Shown piece after piece: positions 23,746-34,446 of a stretch of 64,000 nt of DNA. Source of the DNA: Candidatus Eremiobacterota bacterium. GTDB taxonomy: Bacteria; Vulcanimicrobiota; Vulcanimicrobiia; Vulcanimicrobiales; Vulcanimicrobiaceae. The notes under the pieces are model-generated. The model made no database searches. It was not told the DNA's origin and saw only the letters and a list, made by a program, of their open reading frames with translations. The stretch spans positions 1 to 64,000 of the forward strand of contig JAFAKB010000014.1 in assembly GCA_019235885.1 (NCBI GenBank), written 5' to 3'. The translations under genes were made by a program, and so were the position numbers. Positions within the stretch are counted from its first letter, which is position 1. Each line of letters begins with the position of its first letter.

Positions 23746-25236
23746 TTACGCCGAGCCGATCGACTGCTCGTGGTAGAACACGTTCAACGGGTCCCAGGCG
23801 TTTTTCACCGCGACCAGCTTCTTGTAGTTCTGCTTGTAGTACAGCGTCGGCCAGTCGACGAGATCGCTGTCGCAGTAGTTGACGAAGCAGCCGTCGGTGA
23901 CCGGTCCGTCGGCGACGGGGACGCCGCCGGTGCTCGCGTAGACGGAACGGTAGAAGTTGCGAATCCAGCTGAGGTTCACGTCGTCGTCTTCGGGCGAGGT
24001 CCAGTACGTCTGGTACTGCAGCTTGAGGATCGACGAGCGCTGCGCGACCGCGGTCGCGCCGGGCGGAACCGCGTTCACGGCGCCGCCGTACGAGTCGACC
24101 TGCAGCAGCGCTTGGGCGTTCTTGTAGCACTGGTCGCTCAACACGCTCCAGATCGCGCCGATCTGGTCGCCCGGGAACGGCTTGGTCATGTAGGCGGACT
24201 TGTACTTGCCGCGCTGGTTGGCGCCGGAGCCGTTCAGCGTCTGCGTCGCTTCGATCCACGGCATGCGGCGATACGGCCCGTCGTGCACGATCACGCCGCG
24301 GTGCGGCACCGCGAAGACCTGAGGCCCCGGTGCGCCGACGCCCTCCTGCACCGCGGCGAGAAACTTGTCGAGCAGCGAAACGTCCTCGCCGACGTATTGC
24401 GTCGTCAGCGCGATCTGGCCGTTCGCAAACGTCGAGAGGTGCAGCAGCGCGAACAGGTCTTCATATCGATCGCCCGGTGCGCTGTGCTGCGCGAAGAATT
24501 CGCCGTAGTTCTGAAGCAGCCGCGTGAACTGCGCCTGCGTGAACCCCGCCCAGTTCCACGCGACACTGCTGAGGTACGCGGTCTTCGGGGCTCGCGGCAG
24601 CTGCGGCGAGAACCAGTAGCGCGTCACGATACCAAAGTTTCCGCCGCCGCCACCCGTATGAGCCCAGAGCAGCTCGCTTTTCGCTCCATCCTCGTCGTCG
24701 CGGCGCGCGCGCACGAGCGAGGCCTTCCGGTTCGCGTCGACGCAGACGACTTCGACCGCCACAAGATGATCGACCGTGAGGCCGTGCTTGCGCGAGAGCA
24801 AGCCGTACCCGCCGCCGCAGATGTGTCCGCCCGCACCGACGGAGTAGCACGATCCGCCGGGAATCGTCACGCCGTACTCTTTGTAGAGCGCCGTGTAGAC
24901 GTTCCACAGCGTGCAGCCGCCTTCGACGCAGTACGCGCCGCCCATCGCCTCGTCGCGGTACACCTCGTGCATCGGGCTCAGATCGACGATCACGCCGTAA
25001 GGCGGATCGGTGACGAACCCTTCATAACAGTGCCCGCCGCCGCGCACGGTGACGCGCCGGTTCTGGTCGAGCGCTCGCTGCACCGCGGCGCGGACCTGCT
25101 CGGAATCGCCGCACAATTGGATCGCATCGGGCCGCCCGACCCAGCGCTGGTTGAACCCTGTTGACAGCGCTTCGTAGCGCGGATCGCCCGGCTTGACGGT
25201 CGCGCCGGGAAACTCGGCGCCGGAAACCTCACCCAT
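23746..25236 (-). CDS. FAD-binding oxidoreductase, BBE type, probably doubly linked FAD
   Basis: A 496-residue flavoprotein related to the one at 7262. The PCMH domain has VRGGGHCYEGF (FAD-linking His) and GGSCYSVGAGGHICGGGYG, where the Cys is in the position that forms the second, cysteinyl link; the C-terminal BBE motif is NYKKLVAVKNAWDPLNVF. The 7262 paralog lacks this Cys. No signal peptide. Doubly linked members oxidise oligosaccharides or bulky natural products. Monocistronic, with a divergent promoter shared with the 25366-26105 unit. Confidence 0.88.
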   Translation of the reverse strand: MGEVSGAEFPGATVKPGDPRYEALSTGFNQRWVGRPDAIQLCGDSEQVRAAVQRALDQNRRVTVRGGGHCYEGFVTDPPYGVIVDLSPMHEVYRDEAMGGAYCVEGGCTLWNVYTALYKEYGVTIPGGSCYSVGAGGHICGGGYGLLSRKHGLTVDHLVAVEVVCVDANRKASLVRARRDDEDGAKSELLWAHTGGGGGNFGIVTRYWFSPQLPRAPKTAYLSSVAWNWAGFTQAQFTRLLQNYGEFFAQHSAPGDRYEDLFALLHLSTFANGQIALTTQYVGEDVSLLDKFLAAVQEGVGAPGPQVFAVPHRGVIVHDGPYRRMPWIEATQTLNGSGANQRGKYKSAYMTKPFPGDQIGAIWSVLSDQCYKNAQALLQVDSYGGAVNAVPPGATAVAQRSSILKLQYQTYWTSPEDDDVNLSWIRNFYRSVYASTGGVPVADGPVTDGCFVNYCDSDLVDWPTLYYKQNYKKLVAVKNAWDPLNVFYHEQSIGSA

Positions 25237-27271: not shown

Positions 27272-29272
27272 TTAATTGCTTTCGTCGGTGAACTTCGCGT
27301 ACCAGTGAGTGCCGTCGCAGAACGGCTTGTTCTTCGAATGGCCGCAGCGGCACAGCGCGTAGTGCTCGCGCGAGGCGCCTTCGTTGAACGTCTCGCCACG
27401 GAGCTCGATCCCGCCCTGCACGTGGTACGGTCCGTCTTTCGAGACGTAGATCTGCGGTGCGCGCGTTTGGTCGTGGTACTCGACGCCGTTGCGCGTGCAG
27501 CTCAGCGCGCCGGACGGACAGGCAAGCACGATGTCGATCATCTCCTGCGCGCTCGCAGCGTTCGGGTCGATCCACGGCTCCTGCCCGTTCTTGAACACGG
27601 CCGGAAGATGGTCGCTGCAGTTGCCGGCATGGCAGCACGTCCCGCGGTTGTCGCGCAGCGTCACCTCGCGCCCGGCGTACTCGTCGATCCGGTCGGGAGT
27701 GCGCTCGGGCGATTTCGCGCTGCTGAAGCCGGCGTGCACGTGCGAGCCGTCGCAGAAGGGCTTCATCCGCGAGTGTCCGCAGCGGCACAGCGCCATCTCG
27801 GTCCGCACCGGGAGCGTCTCGCCCTTCGAATTGGTCAGCAGCGGCACGTTCGAGACGAGATACGGCCCGTTGTGCTCGGGCGCGATCGCGATGCCGGCAG
27901 ATCGTTCGAGCGCCTCGATCTCCGCGGCGATCCCGTCATACCCGGCGCGCGAGAGCGCGCCGATCCGCGCGCCGACGTCCTGCAGCGCAGCGGCCGCCTC
28001 TTCGATCTCGGGCGGCACCTCGAAGTGCGTGCGGATGAAGGCGGCCTTGCGCGCCATCTCGCCGAGCCGCTCCGCGAAGAAGATCCACGCCGACTCCTTG
28101 TGCGGGAGCAGATGGACGTCGCGGTTGAAGCCGAACCCGGGCCCGGCGGTTCGGCCGGGATACGCTTCGCCGGCCGGCATCTTCGTGAGCGCCTCGCCGA
28201 GCGGGCGCAAGACCGAGGCCATCATGCGCATCGTCCCGCGCGAGAGGATCTCCAGCTCCTGCTCCGACTCGTCGGTGTGCGCGAAGAAGCGCAGCAGCAT
28301 CAGCAGCATCGTGTCGTAGGCGACGTTGTAGAGGTCGGCGACGTTGTGCGTGAGCTCGTCGCCGATCAGCGCGCCGCCGCTGCCCTCGCCGTAGAAGTGG
28401 GTCATCGGGTTGGCGATCACCGGCCGCACCGGCTCGAACGGCGTTCCGCCGGCCCGAGCGCGCTCGAGCTCGTGCTCGTACTCGACGCGAATCGCGTCGA
28501 AGACGCAGAAGTGCGCGTCGGGATGGTCGGCGGTCGGCGCTTCGCCTTGCCGCACGATCATCTCGATCGCGCGCAGCGCGGAGTCGCGGTCGACGACTGC
28601 GGTCAGCGAGCCGTCGAGGTCGACGTAGCGCGCGTTCGCCTGCGCTTGCGGCGGCCCGATGAACAGCACGTCCTCCGGGATCGCTTGAAAACCGGTGCCG
28701 ATCTTGTGATAGAACTCGCCGACGGTGTCGAAGTCGACCGGGAACGGCTCGACCGCGCAGTGCGTCGGCATCACCTTCTCGGAGACGGTGCGCGGCACCA
28801 CGACGCGCGCGCGGATCTCGTCGTACGGCGCGCGGCGCTCGGGCCCCAGGACGCCCTCTTCCGGCATCTCGTAGCACACGAACCGCTCGATCAGCTCGTG
28901 CGAGAAGGGCTCCAGCGAGAGCGGGATGCGGAACGGAAACGCGTCGGGCGCGAGCGGAAAGTTCGTGCGCCGGAAGTGCGGTGCGCCGCCGACCGCGGTC
29001 AGCATGTTCGCGACCTGCGCGAGGTGCAGCATCTCCTCGATCGCGACGCCGGAGAGCTTCCGCTTCCAGCGGCGCACCGTCTCGGCCTGAGGTTCGGTGA
29101 GCCTGCCTTCGCACACGTCGCTCTTCAGCGAGTGCGCCGCGAACAGGTACACGCACGCGAGCCCGTGCTCCAGCTCCGAGGCTTGCGAGAGCAAATAGAT
29201 CAGCTCTTCGCGTGAGGTGACGGGGGCGATGTGCGAGCGGTCGAGCTCGATCGTCTGCTGCTCGGTAGCCAT
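27272..29272 (-). CDS. Ferritin-like domain fused to CDGSH and ferredoxin-type Fe-S modules
   Basis: A 666-residue multidomain protein. Residues about 10-230 are a ferritin-like four-helix domain of the VioB/iminophenylpyruvate dimer synthase type (ASELEHGLACVYLFAA, GVAIEEMLHLAQVANML supply Glu and His ligands). After a second helical region come CDGSH motif 1 (CRCGHSRMKPFCDGSH, near 505), an iron-sulfur segment with CCHAGNCSDHLP and ACPSGALSC resembling the divergent 4Fe-4S (Fer4_19) domain, and CDGSH motif 2 (CRCGHSKNKPFCDGTH, near 645). Likely a cytoplasmic iron or redox enzyme. No ribosome-binding site is obvious. Confidence 0.85.
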   Translation of the reverse strand: MATEQQTIELDRSHIAPVTSREELIYLLSQASELEHGLACVYLFAAHSLKSDVCEGRLTEPQAETVRRWKRKLSGVAIEEMLHLAQVANMLTAVGGAPHFRRTNFPLAPDAFPFRIPLSLEPFSHELIERFVCYEMPEEGVLGPERRAPYDEIRARVVVPRTVSEKVMPTHCAVEPFPVDFDTVGEFYHKIGTGFQAIPEDVLFIGPPQAQANARYVDLDGSLTAVVDRDSALRAIEMIVRQGEAPTADHPDAHFCVFDAIRVEYEHELERARAGGTPFEPVRPVIANPMTHFYGEGSGGALIGDELTHNVADLYNVAYDTMLLMLLRFFAHTDESEQELEILSRGTMRMMASVLRPLGEALTKMPAGEAYPGRTAGPGFGFNRDVHLLPHKESAWIFFAERLGEMARKAAFIRTHFEVPPEIEEAAAALQDVGARIGALSRAGYDGIAAEIEALERSAGIAIAPEHNGPYLVSNVPLLTNSKGETLPVRTEMALCRCGHSRMKPFCDGSHVHAGFSSAKSPERTPDRIDEYAGREVTLRDNRGTCCHAGNCSDHLPAVFKNGQEPWIDPNAASAQEMIDIVLACPSGALSCTRNGVEYHDQTRAPQIYVSKDGPYHVQGGIELRGETFNEGASREHYALCRCGHSKNKPFCDGTHWYAKFTDESN

Positions 29273-32736: not shown

Positions 32737-33999
32737 TCAGCTCGGGACCTGGGCGGCCGCGCGCGCCAGCAGCAGCTCGCGCTCGCGCGCGTTGCGCGTC
32801 AGCGCCGCGGCGCGCTCGAACTCGGCGCGCGCTTCGGCCGAGCGCCCGAGCTTCTCCAGCAGATCGCCGCGCACGCTCGGGAGCAGGTGATACGTCTTGA
32901 GCGACGGCTCCGCACGCAGCGCGTCGGCCAGTTCCAGACCGGCCTCGGGACCGAACGCCATTCCGACCGCAACCGCGCGGTTCAGCTCGACGACCGGCGA
33001 GGGCGCGAGCTGCGCGAGCGCGTCGTACAGCGCGGCGATGCGCGCCCAGTCGGTCTCGGCGAACGTCTTCGCGCGCGCGTGGCACGCGGCGATCGCCGCC
33101 TGCAACGCGTACGGTCCGAGCGCGCCGCCGAGCTGCTCGGCGCGCTCGAGCGCGGCGAGCCCGCGCCGGATCAGCAGCCGGTCCCAGCGCGCGCGGTCTT
33201 GGTCCGACAAGCGCACCGGCTCGCCGGTCGGACGGAGCCGCGCGTGCGCGCGCGAAGCTTGAATCTCCATGAGCGCGACGAGCCCGTGCACTTCCGGCTC
33301 GCGCGGGACGAGCTGGGCGAGGACGCGGCCGAGGCGCAGCGCGTCCTCGCACAACGCCGGCCGCATCCAGTCCTCGCCGGCCGTCGCCGCGTAGCCCTCG
33401 TTGAAGATCAGGTAGAGCACCTCGAGCACGGACGACAGACGCGCGGCGAGCTCCGCCCCCCGCGGCACTTCGAACGGAACGCGCGCTTCGGCCAAGGTTC
33501 GTTTCGCGCGCACGATCCGCTGCGCGATCGCCGGCGCGGCGACCAGAAACGCGCGCGCGATCTCCTCCGTCGTCAAGCCGCCGAGCAGCCGCAGCGTCAG
33601 CGCGACCCGCGCGTCCTTCGAGAGAACCGGATGGCAGGCGATCAGCATCAATCGCAAGAGATCGTCGCCGACGTCGTCGTCGATGGCAGCCTCGAAATCG
33701 GGAGCGCTCAGCTCGTGCGCCACCAGCTCGCGGGCGAGCTCTTCGTGCTTGCGCTCGAGCATCGGGCCGCGACGCAGCAGGTCGATCGCGCGGTGCTTCG
33801 CGGTCGCCATCAGCCAAGCGCCGGGGTTGTTCGGTATTCCGGCCTGGGGCCAGCGCTCAAGCGCCGCGACGAGCGCGTCCTGCGCGAGGTCCTCGGCGAC
33901 GCCGACGTCGCGCACGATGCGCGCGAGGCCGGCGATCAGCTTCGGCGACTCGATCCGCCACACCGCGTCGATCGCGCGGTGCGCGTCGAACTCGATCAC
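32737..33999 (-). CDS. ECF sigma factor with C-terminal TPR-like extension (ECF42-like)
   Basis: A 420-residue sigma-70-family protein. Region 2 is at about 10-80 (GVAEDLAQDALVAALERWP, WLMATAKHRAIDLLRR); region 4 at 120-170 (LTLRLLGGLTTEEIARAFLV). The long C-terminal extension (about 185-420) with VLYLIFNEGYAATAGEDW and LAALERAEQLGG is typical of ECF42, in which the extension replaces an anti-sigma factor in controlling activity. ECF42 genes sit next to DGPF (YCII-related) genes, as here: the DGPF gene ends 15 bases upstream. Confidence 0.9.
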   Translation of the reverse strand: MIEFDAHRAIDAVWRIESPKLIAGLARIVRDVGVAEDLAQDALVAALERWPQAGIPNNPGAWLMATAKHRAIDLLRRGPMLERKHEELARELVAHELSAPDFEAAIDDDVGDDLLRLMLIACHPVLSKDARVALTLRLLGGLTTEEIARAFLVAAPAIAQRIVRAKRTLAEARVPFEVPRGAELAARLSSVLEVLYLIFNEGYAATAGEDWMRPALCEDALRLGRVLAQLVPREPEVHGLVALMEIQASRAHARLRPTGEPVRLSDQDRARWDRLLIRRGLAALERAEQLGGALGPYALQAAIAACHARAKTFAETDWARIAALYDALAQLAPSPVVELNRAVAVGMAFGPEAGLELADALRAEPSLKTYHLLPSVRGDLLEKLGRSAEARAEFERAAALTRNARERELLLARAAAQVPS

Positions 34000-34014
34000 A
34001 GCGCTCCGGCGCGG

Positions 34015-34446
34015 TCAGGACTGCGCGTTGCGCACCTTCTCGCGGAACTCGGACTCGTTGCGCAGCGCTTCGTTGTCGGCCGGGATGCCTGCCTCGACGA
34101 AGTCCGACACCTCGAAGACTTGGCGGATCTCGATCTCTGAGCCGCCGTCGAACGGCGCGCGCTTGAACCACTCGATCGCTTCTTCTTTCGACTTCGCTTG
34201 GATCAGCCAGTAGCCGGCGACGAGCTCTTTGGTTTCGGCGAAGGGGCCGTCCGTGACGGTGCGCTTCTCGCCGTCGAACTTGATCCGCGCGCCCTTCGAG
34301 CTCGCGTGCAGCCCGTTTCCGTCGAGCATCACGCCGGCGTTCACCAGTTCCTCGTTGAACCGGCCCATCGCGTTGAGCAGCTCTTCGCTGGGCAACTCGC
34401 CGGCTTCAGACTCGGCGCTCGCCTTGACAATCACCATGAATCGCAT
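34015..34446 (-). CDS. YCII-related DGPF-domain protein
   Basis: A 143-residue ferredoxin-like-fold protein with RFMVIVKASAESEAGE, the family motif TVTDGPFAETKELV, and YWLIQAKSKEEAIEWFKR. AAGGAGAG sits seven bases before the ATG. DGPF genes accompany ECF42 sigma factors and are usually their targets; their biochemical activity is not known. Confidence 0.9.
   Translation of the reverse strand: MRFMVIVKASAESEAGELPSEELLNAMGRFNEELVNAGVMLDGNGLHASSKGARIKFDGEKRTVTDGPFAETKELVAGYWLIQAKSKEEAIEWFKRAPFDGGSEIEIRQVFEVSDFVEAGIPADNEALRNESEFREKVRNAQS

Follow-up and report, generated by a model that had tools for sequence, protein, structure and literature searches.

The gene at 27272-29272 (minus strand) of the window, by which we mean the whole 64,000-nucleotide stretch of Candidatus Eremiobacterota DNA analysed here, encodes a single chain that joins a ferritin-like domain to two CDGSH domains and a Fer4_19 domain. 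This fusion is a conserved protein family and not a chimera. We propose that its members act as cytosolic multidomain oxidoreductases, in which an Fe-S relay would feed a diiron centre reactive with O2, peroxide or NO, a reading that on balance we consider somewhat probable. Three lines of evidence bear on it: the conservation of putative metal ligands, the repeated fusion of the same modules, and a set of relatives in which a truncated globin accompanies or replaces the ferritin-like core.

Gene and predicted protein

The open reading frame begins with ATG and contains no internal stops; its source is a draft genome of 105 contigs, 95% complete. The product of 666 aa (73.5 kDa), in which no signal peptide or transmembrane segment is evident (the highest 19-residue Kyte-Doolittle mean is 1.14), is predicted to be soluble. 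The initial annotation, made from the DNA letters, had described a ferritin-like domain followed by two CDGSH motifs on either side of a Fer4_19-like segment, with all metal-binding residues intact. Pfam searches agree: PF12902 and two zf-CDGSH domains are matched well over the curated cut-offs, Fer4_19, likewise far above its own, lies between the latter two, and the six putative diiron positions and both 3Cys-1His sites are present. A full-length AlphaFold2 model (pLDDT 76.8, pTM 0.78), computed from 23 sequences with two plasmid-record rows of the alignment left out, predicts a helical N-terminal half up to about residue 459 and then three small beta-rich domains.

Ferritin-like domain and putative diiron site

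The PF12902 match covers residues 28-262 (28487..29191, minus strand; E 4.5e-37, 128.5-131.6 bits against a curated cut-off of 22.3). The originally assigned residues 10-230 come close to this, but the similarity to VioB continues to about residue 415. A diiron bundle requires the pattern Glu, ExxH, Glu, Glu, His, and the candidate ligands here are E35, E80, H83, E135, E244 and H254, which we infer to converge in space. Across 46 aligned ferritin-like domains, E35, H83 and E135 are invariant and E80, E244 and H254 are retained in 44; all six are kept together in 44 of the 46, and few positions of the domain are as strongly conserved. The same six ligands occur in Chloroflexota proteins of 450-490 aa in which PF12902 stands alone, and in a paralogue in the window's own genome (G000:C29:11426-12070); unlike the window protein, none of these has Fe-S domains.

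Between the ferritin-like domain and the Fe-S part lies a helical extension, residues 263-458 (27899..28486, minus strand), shared with VioB to about residue 415. The model places helices at 306-330, 337-364, 392-416, 421-440 and 442-459. Parts of this extension accompany the Fe-S domains even in relatives that have no ferritin core.

The CDGSH-Fer4_19-CDGSH triplet

Both CDGSH domains (PF09360, two stretches, E 1.2e-34) carry a predicted [2Fe-2S] ligand set: C496, C498, C507 and H511 in the first (residues 468-511; 27740..27871, minus strand), and C641, C643, C652 and H656 in the second (residues 613-657; 27302..27436, minus strand). The class II pattern C-x-C-x8-C-D-G-(S/T)-x0-H thus occurs twice, and none of the 23 close family members lacks a residue of either 3Cys-1His site.

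The Fer4_19 domain between them (PF06902, E 1.1e-18, 67.5 bits against a cut-off of 24) spans residues 532-594 (27491..27679, minus strand) and has a CXX?XXC(X)nCP motif with conserved C546, H548, C552 and C585-P586. Just three cysteines (C546, C552 and C585) are conserved, the second-Cys position being occupied by A, S, F or Y. H548 is invariant within the family, at a non-canonical spacing, and the cluster loop is poorly predicted in the AlphaFold2 model. Ferredoxins with a CXX?XXC(X)nCP motif and a non-Cys residue at this position were isolated, where tested, as [3Fe-4S] proteins (PMC6237146). Since only three cysteines are conserved and the ferredoxins of this motif behave in this way, Fer4_19 probably holds a [3Fe-4S] cluster rather than a [4Fe-4S] one. 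The earlier label of "4Fe-4S", which followed from the Pfam name alone, is doubtful for a protein whose second-Cys position holds no cysteine.

Triplets of the same domain order also exist by themselves. These stand-alone CDGSH class II proteins (about 240 aa, with a central Fer4_19) are found at 35-40% identity in Chloroflexota and in the window's phylum; they have neither a ferritin-like domain nor a globin and form a separate branch of the triplet tree.

Family distribution and independent fusions

The phylum was represented by 149 genomes, of which 31 gave a match; most of the strongest matches run the length of the protein without a break in frame. Twenty-two relatives align across the full domain order at 52-75% identity (mean column identity 73%). 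The survey of proteins with this architecture that had been suggested at the outset finds the entire order in two dozen genomes, and a chance or chimeric open reading frame is ruled out by the 22 close relatives that preserve it. The gene is accessory, being absent from most genomes of the phylum. Relatives come from Candidatus Eremiobacterota records, with one (61% identity) in a Ktedonobacteraceae (Chloroflexota) record, and remoter fusions in plasmid-collection records of Asticcacaulis, Nonomuraea and Streptomyces. In two genomes the gene is split across several frames (L066:5516-7292:- in G028, and L069 in G060), which may reflect pseudogenes or assembly errors. Of separate note, a Nostoc plasmid (L045:4932-9821:+) carries a radical SAM gene between two PF12902-type ferritin-like genes.

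Trees of the ferritin-like domain and of the triplet indicate that PF12902 was joined to CDGSH/Fer4_19 modules at least three times independently: in the main clade, in the two Chloroflexota proteins L111 and L112, and in the actinobacterial proteins L042 and L043. The ferritin-like domain of L111 and L112 was joined anew, since it falls in the stand-alone Chloroflexota branch (AU p=0.006). For the actinobacterial fusions, the ferritin tree shows a grouping with short PF12902 proteins, and in the triplet tree their nearest relatives are stand-alone triplets (AU p=2.3e-7). When two modules have been joined repeatedly, this is usually a sign of direct functional partnership, and these fusions accordingly argue for a direct functional link between the ferritin-like and Fe-S halves.

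Globin-bearing relatives

A group II truncated globin is joined to the same Fe-S triplet in seven relatives. Four of these, Chloroflexota proteins of 917-1213 aa, run in the order ferritin-like, CDGSH, Fer4_19, CDGSH and C-terminal truncated globin (L109:7317-10097:+; L110:7740-10490:+; L112:2187-5528:+; L111:12615-16253:-). Pfam recognises Bac_globin in three of the four, and the globin of L111 was recognised by alignment. The other three (607-676 aa; L064:7895-9715:-, L065:1648-3507:- and L108:6558-8585:+) combine triplet and globin with no ferritin core, and two of them belong to the window's phylum. The globin of the larger relatives matches the group II truncated haemoglobins 5D1V, 2BMM, 1UX8 and 1NGK; the window protein itself has no globin.

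Losses of ligands, of the ferritin core and of the globin proximal His all fall among these proteins. Diiron ligands are lost in only two of the 46 ferritin domains, those of the globin-bearing L109 and L110, and at the same three positions in both (E80R, E244T/R and H254R/S). In L111 and L112 the ferritin domain is intact, with all six ligands. The globin proximal His is kept in six of the seven relatives and is gone from L111, which retains its diiron ligands. L112 appears to keep both the diiron and the globin site, but in its first CDGSH domain Cys replaces the His ligand. One genome (G149) encodes a window-type protein together with a globin-type paralogue whose diiron ligands are broken. 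Because the losses are distributed in this way, the sequences suggest that globin and diiron centre are alternative sites served by one relay, a pattern that was noticed post hoc rather than predicted, in a small sample of seven proteins reflecting perhaps four or five evolutionary events.

Wider sampling of two Chloroflexota classes and of plasmids yielded no more full-length globin fusions. A conserved extension of about 75 aa follows the globin in L108-L112, L064 and L065 (HIKPLFR..DR.SM..AFDLWSY..V...A.AI..R...GTMPCDGAW) and has no Pfam match; stand-alone globins of 263-274 aa in Ktedonobacterales-like genomes share this C-terminal extension.

Gene neighbourhood

The annotated neighbours in the window encode a Lipoprotein_15 protein, Zincin_1, a glyoxalase, an FAD/BBE oxidase, an ECF sigma factor and a YCII protein, and three further neighbours have no Pfam match. 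Among the loci compared, neighbours vary from one to the next; there is no conserved gene cluster and no operon partner that would point to a reductase or a substrate, and an operon-based assignment of function was rejected on this ground. The Lipoprotein_15 gene (PF03640; 29337-29897:-) lies 64 bp upstream on the same strand, and its recurrence at other loci was not seen. A DUF6596 ECF sigma factor gene and a YCII-family gene occur near the fusion both in the window (32737-34446) and at the Asticcacaulis homologue (L041:4162-5734), probably by coincidence, as the gene clusters hold no second sigma-factor case. A TMEM175-family channel gene adjoins or lies near the fusion in four genomes (L047:6754-7344:+; L048:6933-7523:-; L052:456-1046:+; L066:4892-5497:-), where such genes number only about three per genome; the adjacency may reflect shared ancestry in one family. 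A Streptomyces plasmid match also covers a truncated globin and a TMEM175 gene. Since only TMEM175 recurs, and in few genomes, genomic context does not decide between the readings discussed below.

Proposed mechanism and alternatives

We suggest a plausible mechanism for the family. The sequences themselves show the domains and their order, the conserved ligand residues, the repeated fusions and the globin/diiron pattern; which metals are bound, the types of cluster, the way electrons flow, and the oxidant and substrate are inferred. The N-terminal VioB-type ferritin-like bundle would hold a non-haem diiron centre whose reaction partner is a small oxidant (O2, peroxide or NO); an organic substrate may be oxidised in the process. 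The CDGSH [2Fe-2S], Fer4_19 (probably [3Fe-4S]) and CDGSH [2Fe-2S] centres would form a built-in electron relay that is reduced by an external reductase or by reduced flavin and in turn reduces the diiron site. In the globin-bearing relatives, the same relay would serve the truncated globin instead of, or rarely alongside, the diiron site. A precedent for electron transfer by a CDGSH protein is mitoNEET, which passes electrons from FMNH2 to O2 (PMC9490426). A diiron-type site coupled to Fe-S electron transfer, as was first proposed, is the best explanation of the conserved ligands, the repeated fusions and the globin swap. More broadly, these proteins could form a class of modular enzymes: a single three-cluster relay would power heads that react with O2, NO or peroxide and can be exchanged for one another, either a VioB-type diiron bundle or a truncated globin, and the whole would work as a soluble oxidase or gas-detoxification system complete in itself. 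We put forward this wider view tentatively, as possible but short of probable.

Electron transfer need not be the only task of a CDGSH domain, because such domains can also transfer whole clusters. In a reading centred on iron trafficking or Fe-S repair, the ferritin-like domain would oxidise and hold Fe while complete [2Fe-2S] clusters are given up or taken on by the CDGSH domains, with no catalytic turnover. A ferritin-like fold is able to handle iron, and a 2018 survey discusses cluster transfer as a role of CDGSH (NEET) proteins (PMC5859297). Storage of iron, which the initial annotation had included among the possible roles, is not borne out by the fold. In a Foldseek search against the PDB, the only significant solved match to the ferritin-like domain is 3HL1 (E 4.9e-7), the PF12902 protein CC_0557 of Caulobacter vibrioides, with which a profile search agrees (2.8e-6); it is a single domain at about 20% identity and has no Fe-S module. 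Dps and ferritin storage cages give far poorer matches, at E values of about 0.2 to 1 and over little of the query. The replacement of the ferritin core by a globin on the same triplet, together with the loss of diiron ligands, also fits electron delivery to gas-binding sites and not storage, and no iron-uptake or Fe-S-assembly genes are among the neighbours examined. We therefore regard iron trafficking as unlikely.

We are similarly doubtful of a role in specialised metabolism, in which the protein would carry out an oxidative coupling like that of VioB, RebD and StaD, or another substrate oxidation, and the Fe-S relay would serve it as a private ferredoxin. Its N-terminal 415 residues or so are homologous to VioB, one of these iminophenyl-pyruvate dimer synthases (TIGR04492), so the VioB-type character given to the domain at first holds as family resemblance. 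Membership of the VioB equivalog itself was rejected: the profile score of 101.7 bits is about one-tenth of the curated cut-off (1250) and comes from two partial stretches only. The profile aligns at residues 225-415, and the best stretch matches profile positions 792-973. The rest of VioB is not matched, the Fe-S triplet is an addition, and no vioA/rebO-type tryptophan oxidase or tailoring gene was recognised among the annotated neighbours. PF12902 genes do adjoin a GMC oxidoreductase gene in Methylobacterium and lodA/lodB in fungi (PMC4417212), and [3Fe-4S] ferredoxins with a CXX?XXC(X)nCP motif have a supporting role in secondary metabolism (PMC6237146). An FAD/BBE oxidase gene also lies nearby in the window (23746-25236), but it does not recur at other loci, where a conserved gene cluster is likewise missing.

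Conceivably the Pfam name misleads, given how few PF12902 proteins have been characterised, and a metal-free structural helical bundle sits on a CDGSH/Fer4_19 protein of the ordinary kind, the two halves sharing no chemistry. This is very improbable when the ligand residues are among the most conserved of the domain and independent fusions argue for coupling.

Relation to earlier work and significance

A catalogue of 2018 (Fig. 2 of PMC5859297) already lists both associations seen in the window protein, that of CDGSH with a Ferritin-like domain and that of CDGSH with Fer4_19. In the text examined, that catalogue gives no function, ligand analysis, test of independent fusion or globin variant. 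In the open-access literature we found no characterised member of, or functional work on, the PF12902/Fer4_19/CDGSH architecture, and no publication joining CDGSH with a truncated hemoglobin; nor did we find literature on the combination of a ferritin-like domain, the CDGSH-Fer4_19-CDGSH triplet and a truncated globin. The window protein is therefore an uncharacterised variant of a listed architecture, to which the globin swap and the independent fusions add interest.

Most work on CDGSH (NEET) proteins concerns mitochondria, where it is disputed which partner they naturally exchange electrons with. If our reading is right, the present family would place CDGSH domains covalently beside a candidate electron acceptor, one that is swapped for a globin in relatives, and would thereby allow a direct test of what CDGSH domains reduce. 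It would also indicate a likely cluster type for Fer4_19 and a possible function for PF12902 proteins outside bisindole biosynthesis.
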